Shown: piece by piece, positions 10,478 to 17,045 of the stretch
Numbering within the stretch: the first letter of the stretch is position 1
Layout of the letters: each line of letters begins with the position of its first letter
Assembly (NCBI GenBank): GCA_021816745.1
Contig: JAKAWY010000002.1
Location: 1 to 49,771, forward strand
Length of the DNA stretch: 49,771 nt
Origin: Thermoplasmata archaeon
Lineage (GTDB): Archaea > Thermoplasmatota > Thermoplasmata > Thermoplasmatales > Thermoplasmataceae
Reading direction: 5' to 3'
Program-made: the position numbers and the translations under genes
The notes under the pieces: generated by a model
The model's input: only the letters and a program-made list of their open reading frames with translations
Database searches by the model: none
Told to the model about the DNA's origin: nothing

Positions 10478-12316
10478 TCAGGTAAACAGTGTAAAGATTA
10501 TGGAAAGAATCAGGGTGATCATTATATACATAACATATTGCCTCACGTTGCCGTTCATTATCTTCAGAGCAATGAATCTTGATGCCCGTTCATATTTTTT
10601 GAATATCGACAGGAATGTGAGATAAAGCAGGTCAAACCGGTGTGATGAATATTCATGTTTGATATATCCCTCTATCTTTGGAAAGAGCCTGAAAAATGTC
10701 ATTCTTGCCGGGTTCGAATAATTAAATGAATTGTAAGTCCTTCCCCTTTCGACACCCCCTGCCCATACCTCAACCTCCCTGGCATTTTTTGGCCTGAAGA
10801 TATATACAACTGAAAATATGATAGCTGTCGAGATGATTATGAATGTAGGCGTCAGAACACCAAATATATTGCTGTTAAATGGTGAATATATAGTGAATCC
10901 GTCTGGGAAGATCTCCCCTCCAGTCAGGAATAAATTTCTGCCGGATGCTACTTCAGAAACCCCACTGAATAACATGAAAAGAAGCGGAGTTATGAGAGGC
11001 AAAACGATAAGAAGATATCCTATTCCATAATTTTTCCCTGATTCAGGGGACGCTTTCATTTCCGGGGAAGATGTTCCCGTAAATCCAACAAACTTCGTGA
11101 AAACAACCACGGATATTCCAGCGCCTAGCGCTGCCAGTGCACCTGCAATGACCGCTATTATTGAATAATACTGAATGCCGATAAGCGATGCGATGAACAG
11201 GCTTTCCAGAAGCATCCATTCACCTATGCCTCCTCCAAGGGGAGACAATCCCATCATCGATATTGAAGCAATAATCAGGCCGCTCTTTGACATGCTTCTC
11301 CACTCTTTGCTGTTGAATGAATCAGCGTTGAATGCTGTTGAACTCAGTATTACCGATTTGCCTATCCCGTGCATGAACGCGTATATGACGGTACCAATCG
11401 CAGCAAAAGTTCCAAGATTCAAATGCCCTGTGGCATAAGAAAGTGCTGAAACCCCGATGAGCACTATCATGGCACCCACGTTTTCCACAGTGCTATATGC
11501 AGCCAGGACCCTGGGATTTTCAGAGGTACTGGCATATATAGCCCCGAAGAATATTGAAATTGCCCCTACGAGGATCATGATGAGCGACATCGCCTGGAAC
11601 TGCAACCCTGAAAGGCATGCTTCTTCTACCCAATATATTGAAATGGTGGGTATCAGGACTCCAATGAGGATTGACATGGATGAATCTATGCCACTCATTC
11701 CCAGTGAATACCATTCTGACATCTGTAGGGGAATTATACCCGCCTTGACAATAAACCCTGCAGTCCAGAGAGATATGGCAACGGGATTTTCAAACAACGC
11801 AATGATCGAGAATGATCCTGCAGAAGCATATGAAACCGCTGCACCTATAATAAGGAGTATAATACTCAATTCTCCAATGGAGAGAAACACGTATGAAGAG
11901 AGAAGTCCCCTTTTATTATAGAGGCCAAGAATGAACATTGCAGATATGGTGAATGTTTCCCAGAAAACTATCAGTGTCAAGGAGTTTCCTGAAAACAGTG
12001 TGCCAAGTATGCTGAAGAATAGAAGCTTTGCAAAAAATGACCTTGTCCTTGTCCAGTTTGCAAGCACCGTGTTGATACCGGATATGAACCATACTGTTGA
12101 TATGATCAATAGAAAAGAGCCGGAAAGAGGGTTGATTGAAAGCTTGAAATGGTTTAGTGTGTATGGATATATTGAAAGATATCCTGTCAGATAGAGAAGA
12201 CTCACCGTTATAAGGAGGAGAGACCCTGCAATTGTGGTTATTCTTTCCACTTTTTTACTGTACACCGACAATAAAACCAATAATCCTATTATTCCAGTTA
12301 AAAGTATGATATTCAT
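10478..12316 (-). CDS. Hydrogenase-4/complex I-like antiporter subunit (HyfB/NuoL-like)
   Basis: This polytopic membrane protein of 612 residues belongs to the NuoL/M/N-Mrp antiporter-like family. It would form part of the ion-pumping arm of a Hyf-type membrane complex. The central helices carry the expected charged or polar residues in membrane, for example the lysine in GFIVKAGIIPLQMSEWYS and the histidine and lysine in YAFMHGIGKSVI. The C-terminal tail is extended, ending in one more helix, as in HyfB. It is the last of six genes, and its ATG overlaps the preceding stop as ATGA. Together with the HyfF-like gene it gives the complex two antiporter-like modules. Confidence 0.88.
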   Translation of the reverse strand: MNIILLTGIIGLLVLLSVYSKKVERITTIAGSLLLITVSLLYLTGYLSIYPYTLNHFKLSINPLSGSFLLIISTVWFISGINTVLANWTRTRSFFAKLLFFSILGTLFSGNSLTLIVFWETFTISAMFILGLYNKRGLLSSYVFLSIGELSIILLIIGAAVSYASAGSFSIIALFENPVAISLWTAGFIVKAGIIPLQMSEWYSLGMSGIDSSMSILIGVLIPTISIYWVEEACLSGLQFQAMSLIMILVGAISIFFGAIYASTSENPRVLAAYSTVENVGAMIVLIGVSALSYATGHLNLGTFAAIGTVIYAFMHGIGKSVILSSTAFNADSFNSKEWRSMSKSGLIIASISMMGLSPLGGGIGEWMLLESLFIASLIGIQYYSIIAVIAGALAALGAGISVVVFTKFVGFTGTSSPEMKASPESGKNYGIGYLLIVLPLITPLLFMLFSGVSEVASGRNLFLTGGEIFPDGFTIYSPFNSNIFGVLTPTFIIISTAIIFSVVYIFRPKNAREVEVWAGGVERGRTYNSFNYSNPARMTFFRLFPKIEGYIKHEYSSHRFDLLYLTFLSIFKKYERASRFIALKIMNGNVRQYVMYIMITLILSIIFTLFT

Positions 12317-12945
12317 CGCAACCCCCTGGATTTTTGTATCGCATCCACGATCGTGAAAGGGTCAGGTGGGCAACCGGGAACAATTACATCGATTTTGAGA
12401 GCGTCAGAAATGGACTTGCCAAGAAGTGAACCTGAAATGGCGCAAGCACCAATTGCAAAGACAATCTTTGGCTCAGCCATTGCCTCGTATGCCCTTCTGA
12501 GAGGATCCATCATACCCGGTGTGAGTACCCCGGAGACCAGTAGCGCATCGGCATGCCGTGGCGTGTTTGTGAATGAAACACCGAGCCTTGTCATATCATA
12601 CTGCGGGCTCACCATGGCCATAACTTCCAGATTACATGCACCACAGCTTCCTACATCAATAGAGTACAGCCTTATGGATTTCTTCAGTGCGGGAACCGAT
12701 AAATGGGATATCGATCCTCGAACATCCATGGAAGGCTCAAATTCCGGATAGCACAGGCCACATGAAATACAAAGATTCGCATCTACTTTCTTATTGGTGA
12801 TTGCCCCCGTTGGGCAGTATGGATTCGCGTTTCCGTCACGGTAAACAGGAGTCGTTGACCATGGTGATGCCACCTCATTCTTCCCTTTTGGAAATCTGGT
12901 GGTTATTATGCCTTTCTTAAATGAACGCAATATCCAGGCTTTCAT
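12313..12945 (-). CDS. Fused ferredoxin-NuoB/HyfI-like iron-sulfur subunit
   Basis: This peripheral electron-transfer subunit is made of two parts. Residues about 40-70 form a ferredoxin-like module with C44 (in YCPTGAI) and C59, C62, C65 (CISCGLC). Residues about 92-205 match the NuoB/HyfI small subunit, with ligands C101 and C104 (CGACNLE), C168 (GACAISG) and C192 (PGCPPDP) for the cluster nearest the active site. In most relatives the two parts are separate proteins (HyfH/NuoI and HyfI/NuoB), and the ferredoxin binds two clusters. Here only the ligands for one remain. Both ends are ATGA overlaps with neighbouring operon genes. Confidence 0.9.
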   Translation of the reverse strand: MKAWILRSFKKGIITTRFPKGKNEVASPWSTTPVYRDGNANPYCPTGAITNKKVDANLCISCGLCYPEFEPSMDVRGSISHLSVPALKKSIRLYSIDVGSCGACNLEVMAMVSPQYDMTRLGVSFTNTPRHADALLVSGVLTPGMMDPLRRAYEAMAEPKIVFAIGACAISGSLLGKSISDALKIDVIVPGCPPDPFTIVDAIQKSRGLR

Positions 12946-14129
12946 AGAAGATCACCCATTTCAGATATCCATATGCCGAGGCTCTCGTAACCAAAAAGGA
13001 AATCGGCGAATGTGCTGGCAGGAATCGATTCGGCAAACGCCTCCATGTTGAGGATAGATGGACTCCTGAAACCTATGCTTTCTATTTTATCGGCCCTTAT
13101 CTTTAGAAGCATTGATGCATCTCCTGATGGTGTTTCCATGAACCCTCCTGAAATGGTTCCTTCCACTTCACGAACTCCCTGAGAACCAGTCTTTATTTCA
13201 CCAATCCTTGAAATTGCGCGTTCAATAATCCCAACTGACTCCACAATCTCTCCAGACCTCACAATGAAGCGGGCAAGAGCATCGCCTCCTTCGGAGGTTG
13301 TTGCCTTGAAGTCAAGACCTTCATAATACCTGTGAAAATTCCTGCCATCCCTGTTTATTCCACTCCCCCTCAATGCAGGCCCTGAGCTGTGTTCTCCCTT
13401 TATTATAGCGGATTTATCAAGTCGGTCTATGAATATTCTTGAATCCATCAGCGTGTTGAATATTTCCACATATTCATCGCTGATGAGCCTGACCTTTTTT
13501 CCAAATTCCTTCAGGTTAACAGGCCTGCCTATTCCACCTATCCTGTTGACCCCGAAGAAATACCTGTGCCCGAACACGGATGCAATGGCCCTGAGAAGGT
13601 CCTCCCTGAGCAACAGTATATTCATATGTGCTATATTCTGTGATGCACCGCCGGTGAGACGTGAGGCCACAAAGAGATGTGACGAAATCCTCTCTGCCTC
13701 CATCATGGCAACCCTCAGGAGTTCAACCCCTTCCGGAACATCCAGGTTCATGCCTTTTTCGCATATCTGGCAGAATAGTGTGGAATATGAGGCTGCATGA
13801 ACACCGTTCATCCGTTCCATTCTTAGCAGTCCCTCGTTCATTGACAGTCCTGAAATCTTTATTGACCTGTTTTTGAAATCGGTATCATACCTAACATCCT
13901 CAATCTTCTCTCCCTGCGTAAGGATATCAAAATATACGCTTTCCACCATTCCTCCCGAAGAAGGGCCATATGGGAATACAGATAGCCTCTCGGTGTCTGT
14001 GCTGGAGAAGTTCTCGTGCTTGAAACCATTCAATCCTTCTGATGCCAGGATTACCGGCACATCTGTGAATCTTTCGAGCGTGTAATATGAATTTCCGTCA
14101 ATGATGTGTGCAACACCGGATTGCTTCAT
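12942..14129 (-). CDS. Hydrogenase-4 large-subunit-like protein (HyfG/NuoCD-like) lacking NiFe ligands
   Basis: This 395-residue protein matches the catalytic large subunit of group 4 NiFe hydrogenases and NuoD of complex I (for example FFGVNRIGG and LLRVAMMEAERISSHLF). It aligns without gaps to the N-terminal NiFe motif ERxCGxC, but reads ERMNGVH, so the two cysteines are N108 and H111. The C-terminal DPCxxC is also gone (the tail ends GYESLGIWISEMGDLL). It therefore cannot hold a NiFe centre and probably transfers electrons to a quinone or another acceptor, as in complex I-like energy-converting-hydrogenase-related complexes. The frame is open to 14165, but the ATG at 14129 makes an ATGA overlap with the preceding stop and is preferred. 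Confidence 0.88.
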   Translation of the reverse strand: MKQSGVAHIIDGNSYYTLERFTDVPVILASEGLNGFKHENFSSTDTERLSVFPYGPSSGGMVESVYFDILTQGEKIEDVRYDTDFKNRSIKISGLSMNEGLLRMERMNGVHAASYSTLFCQICEKGMNLDVPEGVELLRVAMMEAERISSHLFVASRLTGGASQNIAHMNILLLREDLLRAIASVFGHRYFFGVNRIGGIGRPVNLKEFGKKVRLISDEYVEIFNTLMDSRIFIDRLDKSAIIKGEHSSGPALRGSGINRDGRNFHRYYEGLDFKATTSEGGDALARFIVRSGEIVESVGIIERAISRIGEIKTGSQGVREVEGTISGGFMETPSGDASMLLKIRADKIESIGFRSPSILNMEAFAESIPASTFADFLFGYESLGIWISEMGDLL

Positions 14130-15481
14130 AATAACCCCACCATAAAAAGGAATGCGAATATGCATGAAATGGCCACGGTTGCACCGGTAACTAATACCTG
14201 TTGAGTGGAAATTCGAGCTGATGATGTGGGAGGTGCAACGCTGAACACCATCTTCAAAACCTTGTAATTGACTGAAAGAAATATGATTCCAAGAAGTATG
14301 ACGAGAATTGCCATGATACTACCCAGCCCGTGAGAATATAGAGAAGATAAAATGAAAAATTCACCTAAGAATATTCCAAAAGGCGGGGCCCCGGAAACGG
14401 CAAGAGTTGAGATGATTAGGGTGTAAGAGGTAAACTTCTGTTCTCCCCATACATTCTGTATATTAGGCATGTCTCTTGTGTGATAAGTTTCAAGAATATT
14501 CCCGCTGGAATAAAAAGCGCCAGCTTTTGCAAATGCGTGAGTCATGATGATCAATATTGATCCAAAGAGTGCTATTCCACCCAGTGCGAAACCAAGGAGA
14601 ATGAGTGCCATGTTCTCCATTGTGGAATAAGCGAACATCCTCTTGATATCCCTCTGCGATGCCATGACAATGGCGACGAACAGAAGCGAAATAACAGTAA
14701 AGAAGATTGTTGCCTCATAAATAGCCGTTATATTTATTGTTTTAATAATTATATATATTGCATATATTGCTATTGGAAGCAAAACTGCAGAAAACATTGC
14801 GCTTATTTCCGATGGTGCACGCCCATGCGCATCTGGAAGCCATGAATGCATGGGAAAAATTCCACCCTTTGTTCCAAAGCCTATTATTCCAAATAAGGCA
14901 GCCAATACCAGGATCTGAGAGGGCTGTGATGAAGAGACCAGAAGCGTTGTTATTTCCAGTGTGCCAAAAACCCTGTATATGAGGATTATTGATATCAGGG
15001 CTATTGCCAGGCCGGCAGAAACGATGATGATATACCTCCATGCTGCTTCCATATCAGCAGGTTCCCCCTCGATTATTATAAGTATTGCACTGGATGCAGT
15101 AGTGCCTTCGATGCCAATCCACATTAAACCCAGATTGTTGATGACCAGAGAAAACAGCATGGTGAACGTAAACATGCCCATCATTGACATATGCACCCTC
15201 AGGTGCCTGGATTCACCCATTTTCTTATGATAACCTGTGCCATATATTACCGAAAAGACGTAGATCGAAGAAACGCAGATGAGTATGTACCTGTTTATTT
15301 CATTCAGGTAAAAGTATGAATATGTCCCTGAGTTAAGAGTGAAAACCAGGGTGGTGAATAGGAGTGTTGCTAAAGCCATTGCTATGGAGATTTCCCTGAA
15401 GTACCTGAAGAAGAATGATATGCCGGATAGTACTGGAATAGCAAGCATAATGATTATGACATATGTTCCGCCTATCATCAT
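14126..15481 (-). CDS. Hydrogenase-4/complex I-like antiporter subunit (HyfF-like)
   Basis: This 451-residue polytopic membrane protein is of the NuoL/M/N-Mrp antiporter family, closest in gene order to HyfF. It contains the functional motifs of the family: an in-membrane glutamate in LMWIGIEGTTASSA, the lysine in FGTKGGIFPMHSWLPDAHGRAPSEISA, and MTHAFAKAGAFYSSGN. These residues mark proton-translocation half-channels in complex I, so it probably couples electron flow to proton movement. It shares ATGA overlaps at both ends with the neighbouring HyfE- and HyfG-like genes. Confidence 0.92.
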   Translation of the reverse strand: MMIGGTYVIIIMLAIPVLSGISFFFRYFREISIAMALATLLFTTLVFTLNSGTYSYFYLNEINRYILICVSSIYVFSVIYGTGYHKKMGESRHLRVHMSMMGMFTFTMLFSLVINNLGLMWIGIEGTTASSAILIIIEGEPADMEAAWRYIIIVSAGLAIALISIILIYRVFGTLEITTLLVSSSQPSQILVLAALFGIIGFGTKGGIFPMHSWLPDAHGRAPSEISAMFSAVLLPIAIYAIYIIIKTINITAIYEATIFFTVISLLFVAIVMASQRDIKRMFAYSTMENMALILLGFALGGIALFGSILIIMTHAFAKAGAFYSSGNILETYHTRDMPNIQNVWGEQKFTSYTLIISTLAVSGAPPFGIFLGEFFILSSLYSHGLGSIMAILVILLGIIFLSVNYKVLKMVFSVAPPTSSARISTQQVLVTGATVAISCIFAFLFMVGLL

Positions 15482-16098
15482 CCCATCATCTCCTGGAACA
15501 CCTGTGTTTCAGGTTTATCTGATATTATTACCGTTGAGACTATGAGCAGCGCAAGAACATCAAGAAGCACGCTTACCTCAATGACAAGAGGCATAGATAT
15601 GATGCCAATACCAAGCATGACAATGGCATTTTCCTCTTCGATATATCCAAGGAATTGCGAAAACTTGCTCTTTCTGGAACCTATCAGAAACAGTCCCTGG
15701 AAAAGCAGGGCAAAGCCGCCATCACCAATGGTTTCATAACCCAGCGGAGTAAACAGTATGCGGTATGTCAGAAATGAAAATACAAGGAAAAGAATGCTAA
15801 CGACGCTGAGAAAAGAAGCATCGCCAAATCTTTCACGGGAAATGAACTGGTGTGTGGAAAGTTTGGAGTTCAGAAGGGTACTGGTCAGGAATGCCCTCAA
15901 TATTATGATAAGTATACCAAGTGTGACCAGTTCGATATCCGTCTCTGATATTCCCAATATGATGATATATAATGACAAAAGCAAGGACTGGATTGATACA
16001 ATCCTGACCTTATGCGACATGAATGTACCAAGTTGAGCCCATATTGCAGTGAGAATCATGGCAGCTATTATGAGATCCAGAACCTCCGGGTTGATCAT
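15478..16098 (-). CDS. Hydrogenase-4 component E-like membrane protein (HyfE)
   Basis: This membrane protein of 206 residues has about six hydrophobic segments. Its position between HyfC- and HyfF-like genes and its profile match HyfE, which joins NuoK-like helices to an extra N-terminal region. A glutamate sits in the membrane segment IEEENAIVMLGIGIISMPLVIE, as in NuoK-like subunits. Recognition rests largely on operon position, size and topology because this family is weakly conserved. ATGA overlaps are present at both ends. Confidence 0.8.
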   Translation of the reverse strand: MINPEVLDLIIAAMILTAIWAQLGTFMSHKVRIVSIQSLLLSLYIIILGISETDIELVTLGILIIILRAFLTSTLLNSKLSTHQFISRERFGDASFLSVVSILFLVFSFLTYRILFTPLGYETIGDGGFALLFQGLFLIGSRKSKFSQFLGYIEEENAIVMLGIGIISMPLVIEVSVLLDVLALLIVSTVIISDKPETQVFQEMMG

Positions 16099-17045
16099 GA
16101 AAAGCCACCTACGACAAATAGTGTTACGGAAAGAAATGACAGAATGAATGAGAGTGAGAGGAAATCAACTATCTTGAATATCCGGATTCTTGCAATGCTC
16201 TGCTCAAGAATAATGATCAATAAAATGAGAACCAGCCATTTCACCAGCATAATGGGAATGTCAATAATTGAACCTAAGAATCCCGGCTGAAGCCCCCATG
16301 GGAAAATGAAAACGTTCAGGAAGAGAGAACCCAGGAGATATTGCTTTATTATGGATGAATACCTGATGAAAAAGAGGTTCCTACCACCATATTCGTATAT
16401 TTTTCCTTCTTCAATCATGCCAAGTTCGGACAATCCTCCGCCTTCGACTGGAAGTTTGCCTGTCTCAAACATGAAGAACATCAGGAAGGCTAATGAAGCA
16501 AGTATGTGGGTCAGTGAGAAAAACAGGTAGCTGTTCGCTGTTAAATCCGCGTTAGTGATGTATGGATTGTTTGTCCCGGTCTCAATGGCAACTGCAAAGA
16601 AGACAACTATGAGCGTTGGTTCTACAAGTGCTGAGAATATGACTGATCTCCCGGCGCTCATGGCAGTAAAATTGCTGTTGTTGTCAATTGCACCAAGAAT
16701 GGACAACACTGATGCCAGTGTAAAAAGCATGGCACCACCCAGGAAATCTGCCAGCGGGGCAAATATTGTGTAACCTGGCTGCACCGGTATGAGAAATGCC
16801 AACAATATCATTATGGATAGAACCATCATTGGCGCTTTTCTATGAATAAATCCGGAATCCCTGCTTATGATAGCTTCCTTCCTCAGATTTTTTGCAAGAT
16901 CATAATAAGGCTGTAAAATAGGGGATCCCTTCCTGAACTCCGTTTTGGCCTTTATGTTCTCATAGATGCCTGCTATGAGTGGGGAAAAAAGTAAAATGCC
17001 TAGTACCTGAACAACCGATTCAAAAATAACCTGCATCATATGCAC
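16095..17045 (-). CDS. Hydrogenase-4 component C/NuoH-like membrane subunit (HyfC)
   Basis: This 316-residue membrane subunit links the hydrophilic and ion-pumping parts of complex I-like enzymes. The conserved stretch KGSPILQPYYDLAKNLRKE (about residues 39-57) and the acidic loop EGGGLSELGMIEEGKIYEYGG (about 216-236) are diagnostic of the HyfC/HycD/EchB/NuoH group. It is the first gene of the operon, and its stop is shared with the HyfE start as ATGA. Three in-frame ATGs at 17045, 17039 and 17036 are possible starts. The upstream region on the minus strand has AT-rich stretches, with TTTAATATTT about 55-65 bases before the first ATG. Confidence 0.92.
   Translation of the reverse strand: MHMMQVIFESVVQVLGILLFSPLIAGIYENIKAKTEFRKGSPILQPYYDLAKNLRKEAIISRDSGFIHRKAPMMVLSIMILLAFLIPVQPGYTIFAPLADFLGGAMLFTLASVLSILGAIDNNSNFTAMSAGRSVIFSALVEPTLIVVFFAVAIETGTNNPYITNADLTANSYLFFSLTHILASLAFLMFFMFETGKLPVEGGGLSELGMIEEGKIYEYGGRNLFFIRYSSIIKQYLLGSLFLNVFIFPWGLQPGFLGSIIDIPIMLVKWLVLILLIIILEQSIARIRIFKIVDFLSLSFILSFLSVTLFVVGGFS

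Follow-up and report, generated by a model that had tools for sequence, protein, structure and literature searches.

A six-gene operon with a hydrogenase-like large subunit

The window analyzed in this study is a stretch of 49,771 nucleotides (positions 1–49,771 of contig JAKAWY010000002.1, assembly GCA_021816745.1) from a Thermoplasmata archaeon (Thermoplasmataceae) whose genome is 79% complete. It contains a six-gene operon that almost certainly encodes a complex of the Ehr type, a class in which the large subunit is related to that of group 4 [NiFe] hydrogenases and lacks the cysteine ligands of the NiFe site. The genes lie on the minus strand with overlaps of a few bases, in the order NuoH-like, HyfE-like, HyfF-like, large subunit, small subunit and HyfB-like. 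The large-subunit open reading frame runs from 14129 down to 12942 and encodes 395 residues, with an in-frame ATG at 14165 as another possible start, and the plus strand over the same interval is full of stop codons. No gene for a ferredoxin, a formate dehydrogenase or a diaphorase was found within the operon. Its genes and the motifs discussed below are as follows:

16095–17045, minus strand: gene 1, NuoH/HyfC-like membrane anchor (Pfam NADHdh, 7e-28; acidic residues of the E-channel kept among Ehr relatives)
15478–16098, minus strand: gene 2, HyfE-like membrane subunit (recognized by its position and by a profile search that also recovers E. coli HyfE; no match in Pfam or NCBIfam)
14126–15481, minus strand: gene 3, HyfF-like antiporter subunit (NCBIfam hydrogenase 4 subunit F, 9e-126; proton-path Glu/Lys/His conserved)
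12942–14129, minus strand: gene 4, large (former catalytic) subunit (Pfam Complex1_49kDa, 2e-22; PDB matches HycE, 1.5e-20, and MbhL, 1.1e-18)
13941–13943, minus strand: E63 codon, equivalent of HycE E193 (kept in all 43 Ehr sequences)
13797–13808, minus strand: N108-G-V-H111 codons, where the first CxxC would stand (ungapped alignments and residue counts)
12960–12977, minus strand: G385-I-W387-I-S-E390 codons at the place of DPCxxC (alignment to HycE D529, C531 and C534)
12313–12945, minus strand: gene 5, small iron-sulfur (Fe-S) subunit with an N-terminal four-Cys ferredoxin-like domain (Pfam Oxidored_q6, 2e-21; eight Cys conserved in the Thermoplasmata set)
12751–12816, minus strand: extra [4Fe-4S] motif of the small subunit, C44, C59, C62 and C65 (all four in 33 of 33 relatives)
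12370–12645, minus strand: proximal cluster Cys C101, C104, C168 and C192, with hydrogenase-type CxxC spacing (ungapped with HycG/HyfI)
10478–12316, minus strand: gene 6, HyfB-like antiporter subunit (NCBIfam hydrogenase 4 subunit B, 2e-84; key Glu/Lys kept, His207 lost in the clade)

Loss of the NiFe ligands and the remodelled pocket

Both ligand motifs of a group 4 [NiFe] hydrogenase, RxCGxC and DPCxxC, are missing from the large subunit. The first-pass annotation had placed N108 and H111 at the first CxxC from an alignment by eye and had concluded that all NiFe cysteines are replaced, and three independent alignments agree with the placement of this first pair. In phmmer alignments to E. 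coli HycE (7z0s) and P. furiosus MbhL (6cfw), N108-G-V-H111 falls without gaps on C-G-I-C, ERMNGVH being paired with DRVCGIC and ERMCGIC, respectively. The same placement was obtained by hhalign against four Cys-bearing NiFe subunits (Prob 99.8, E 1e-28) and by hmmsearch with a NiFe-only profile (E 3e-44). These local profile alignments stop near residue 380, and the C-terminal cysteine pair was placed from multiple alignments, in which HycE C241, C244, C531 and C534 correspond to N108, H111, W387 and E390. The stretch GYESLGIWIS, which had been named as the replacement of DPCxxC, is thus in the right place and ends one residue short of E390 at the fourth cysteine position.

Misalignment hiding the ligands was ruled out, as C120 and C123 are the sole cysteines of the protein and neither is conserved. 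Among the 43 cysteine-free relatives, the best column has Cys in 18 of 43 and none is conserved; shifting the alignment therefore cannot bring a NiFe site back. A NiFe hydrogenase of a cryptic or unusual type, using other ligands, would display the overall sequence similarity to HycE and MbhL, yet there are no Cys ligands, no conserved Cys in the family and no HypD. The last of these, the only Hyp protein searched for, gave no match over the cut-off in 77 family genomes and none at all in the 35 of high quality, and the matches to a NiFe large-subunit profile in the genomes are only the N-terminal parts of Ehr subunits. Such an enzyme is excluded on present evidence, and the earlier statement that the subunit cannot act as a NiFe hydrogenase stands because the ligands and HypD are both missing. 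The large subunit has no NiFe site and is predicted to retain the hydrogenase fold, and its complex belongs to the superfamily that unites complex I and the group 4 hydrogenases. An AlphaFold2 model made from seven sequences was poor (mean pLDDT, the predicted local distance difference test score, of 52, and below 50 in the pocket).

The residues that replace the cysteines are not the unusual choice they had been taken for. Among 32 Thermoplasmata proteins, the first cysteine position is N in 30 and C in two; the second is H in 26, Y in four and L in two; the third is W in 25; and the fourth is E in every one. In another family belonging to this order, the four positions hold T, C, S or V, then F, Y and D, and in six bacterial relatives they hold S/E/A, S/A/D, mixed residues and G. 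From these counts, the N/H pair is a signature of the lineage.

The remainder of the pocket was mapped using the residue map of HycE (PMC9474812), in which E193 is the hydrogenase proton-carrier Glu. In addition to the equivalent of that residue, E63, the proton-path residues R254 and E294 are retained. None of the 43 Ehr sequences has the canopy Asp, its place being taken by Gly or Asn, and the window lineage has also lost the canopy Arg. In complex I, a His and a Tyr serve the quinone (roles taken from PMC7684303); these two and the canopy Asp correspond to V62, G109 and G385 in the large subunit. It is conceivable, if somewhat doubtful, that the former NiFe pocket has become a new type of active site, metal-free and proton-coupled, with an N/H/E/E set, the carrier Glu kept and the canopy Asp lost. 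If so, Ehr would represent a further chemistry of the superfamily beside NiFe, MBS (the Pyrococcus sulfane sulfur reductase) and complex I-type quinone sites.

Predicted electron wire, membrane arm and selection

The four cysteines of the extra ferredoxin-like domain are invariant in the relatives of the small subunit, and those of the proximal cluster are nearly so (C101, C104 and C168 in 33 of 33; C192 in 32 of 33, with one gap). The proximal motif has the length found in hydrogenases and aligns without gaps to HycG through all four cysteines. It has the CxxC of hydrogenases; neither the adjacent cysteine pair (CC) of complex I cluster N2 nor the shortened motif with three-Cys coordination described for MBS (PMC7684303) is present in the small subunit.

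Different arrangements were seen outside the archaea. The Ehr small subunit encoded on a plasmid of Mycobacterium branderi (L079 10192–10986) has lost all proximal cysteines, which are N, D, D and A, and has kept the extra four-Cys domain. The Ehr-like small subunits of Rhizobium, Cupriavidus and Burkholderia (L081, L082, L084 and L086), whose clusters have the order B-H-E-F-G-I, have kept the proximal cysteines and lack the ferredoxin-like domain, so that there is no obvious electron input in these four.

Both antiporter modules are present, as the first-pass annotation had stated, and they keep nearly all the charges of their proton paths (Glu, Lys and His), as the NuoH-like subunit keeps its acidic residues. 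Two changes are confined to the window clade: HyfB His207, which never varies in 24 other Ehr, is exchanged for M, L or R in each of its eight members, and these eight also have R in place of HyfF E221. Ratios of nonsynonymous to synonymous substitution (dN/dS) for the six genes, from pairs of window orthologues and the sister type, were 0.02–0.18, values that are rough because dS is near saturation in some pairs. A pseudogene was ruled out, since the closest orthologues are intact, apart from copies cut by contig ends, and dN/dS is far below 1. The kept pump residues, the eight Fe-S cysteines and this range of dN/dS together argue that the Ehr-type complex is a working machine. Nor does the loss of the NiFe cysteines look like chance, because the gene order of the operon is conserved and purifying selection is strong.

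The peripheral arm could be structural or regulatory, with the membrane arm serving pH or stress homeostasis by moving H+ or a different ion independently of any redox reaction. The M. branderi complex without proximal cysteines and the rhizobial and Burkholderia type without the ferredoxin-like domain indicate that an Ehr can persist without a full wire, and GrpE-DnaK-DnaJ and universal stress genes stand beside Ehr clusters in nine related loci. On the other hand, the invariance of eight Fe-S cysteines in the window lineage is hard to explain without electron transfer, and we consider a redox-independent transporter improbable.

Relatives, genome context and candidate function

The class to which the operon belongs was already known. 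Group 4-like genes lacking both Ni-binding motifs were described in acid mine drainage plasmas, the same organism group, in 2013 (PMC3750248), and the same ligand loss was reported in Sulfobacillus in 2014, where the name Ehr was used (PMC4378227); because of these two reports, the window operon adds a member to a described class. Complexes of formate dehydrogenase with Ehr have since been proposed (PMC6349859), and in Geobacter an Ehr was raised on formate, its role there never having been investigated (PMC7894505). Ehr has been reported in many archaea and bacteria, and the window lineage offers a compact six-gene version whose conserved pocket signature differs from those of hydrogenase and complex I. 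It bears on how an H2 site became other redox sites and on which residues couple redox chemistry to pumping.

Assignment to Ehr is based on a group 4-related large subunit without NiFe Cys ligands, on the antiporter-like, HyfE, NuoH and Fe-S small subunits in the same cluster, and on phylogeny. In an unrooted IQ-TREE phylogeny of 55 sequences, which was built without the published Sulfobacillus and Geobacter Ehr, a branch with 100/100 support separates the NiFe and Nuo proteins from all the cysteine-free Ehr-like proteins, archaeal and bacterial, and the window protein lies in a clade of nine (starred in the tree). As its root is not fixed, the tree makes no statement as to whether the NiFe or the cysteine-free state came first. 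Membership of Nuo was ruled out by the tree together with the residues.

Comparison with known systems indicates both what is shared and what is particular to the window lineage. It has in common with Ehr the group 4-like large subunit without NiFe ligands, NuoH, HyfE, two antiporters and an Fe-S small subunit, and with the M. branderi Ehr an identical six-gene order (H-E-F-G-I-B), but differs from other Ehr in its N108/H111/W387/E390 pocket and in an operon without a formate dehydrogenase or NuoE/F partner. The 'putative group 4 hydrogenases' of acid mine drainage plasmas (E-plasma and others, PMC3750248) differ from the window complex in species only. E. coli hydrogenase 4/formate hydrogenlyase shares homologues of HyfB, C, E, F, G and I and the proton-carrier Glu, whereas the window operon lacks the NiFe cysteines, the HyfA/HyfH ferredoxin subunits and the NuoC-type fusion, and its family lacks HypD. 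Complex I (NuoD/Nqo4) belongs to the same superfamily and likewise has an acidic residue at the fourth cysteine position, but the window subunit has none of the quinone His, Tyr, canopy Asp and Lys and falls outside Nuo in the tree. The Pyrococcus MBS is, like the window complex, a hydrogenase-derived pump without NiFe; its donor is ferredoxin, as would be the case here, although MBS keeps two cysteines and a three-Cys proximal cluster and its small-subunit motif differs in length.

The genomic setting makes ferredoxin a plausible donor. Genes for 2-oxoacid:ferredoxin oxidoreductases (POR) were found in all 12 genomes checked, and NuoF in three of them, none of the window genus; there is also no NuoF in the assembled part of the window genome. 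A search for a conserved redox partner next to the operon in related loci found none except for a block of POR and fumarase genes. Within the E-plasma genus, this block adjoins the operon in each of the three genomes with the operon, and it is a weak hint of a link to ferredoxin. The first-pass annotation had suggested a ferredoxin- or quinone-linked pump, and the ferredoxin half of this gains from the oxidoreductases, the lack of NuoF and the invariant extra domain, while a complex I-type quinone site is unsupported.

The complex may well be a ferredoxin-driven proton pump that reduces an acceptor other than H2-forming protons, perhaps a quinone in a non-canonical way. Reduced ferredoxin would dock at the small subunit, and electrons would run via the extra [4Fe-4S] cluster and then the proximal [4Fe-4S] cluster into the remodelled pocket of E63, N108, H111, H188, E382 and E390. 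An acceptor other than protons would be reduced there, and the energy released would drive protons out through NuoH, HyfE, HyfF and HyfB. As that acceptor we tentatively place a membrane quinone, bound non-canonically, ahead of other candidates, and this is the weakest step of the scheme. Several observations weigh against the scheme. The 49-kDa quinone His and Tyr, the canopy Asp and the canopy Lys/Arg are all missing; a published Ehr host is without quinone synthesis genes (PMC6349859); and a true NuoD on another contig of the window genome (C74) means that a quinone-reducing complex I is probably already present. Furthermore, the complete electron wire is missing in some Ehr relatives, the window operon contains no donor or acceptor gene, and the literature found holds no biochemistry for any Ehr-like complex.

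The absence of quinone residues from the large subunit would suit a ferredoxin-driven pump whose acceptor, instead of quinone, is a small compound, soluble or hydrophobic, such as polysulfide. Thermoplasmatales include sulfur respirers, and MBS provides a precedent as a group 4 relative with a changed pocket and a ferredoxin donor (PMC7684303). However, all four large-subunit cysteines are gone and the small-subunit motif, ungapped with HycG, has four, and we regard this acceptor as unlikely. Operation in reverse, with the proton gradient of an acidophile pushing electrons from quinol or another donor to ferredoxin, is in our view less likely again. The pH gradient across an acidophile membrane is naturally large, the parts list is neutral as to direction and ferredoxin-dependent enzymes are present. 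The need for such a reaction is unclear, though, as Thermoplasmatales that are heterotrophic obtain their reduced ferredoxin from 2-oxoacids (PMC5473848), and no sequence feature decides the direction.

Beyond the window, searches of 120 related genomes identified one or two copies of the complex in most of the family. The six-gene order is the same in the Thermoplasmata Ehr loci fetched, contig-end-cut copies excepted. Contig C22 of the window genome carries another complete cluster, with the motifs RINGFHAAS and NWESYGIWISE in its large subunit. In one genus, four genomes of high quality (G016, G048, G059 and G066) have no Ehr-level match and a single weak NuoD-level match, and the complex therefore looks dispensable. 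Viral contigs scanned with the Ehr alignment yielded no relative. The E-plasma orthologue of the large subunit is 69% identical to that of the window, and in a second E-plasma Ehr cluster (L060 8639–9921) the large subunit is split over two frames by a frameshift or an assembly error. Genes for GrpE, DnaK, DnaJ and a universal stress protein adjoin one Ehr cluster type at L010 1608–5595 and at eight related loci.
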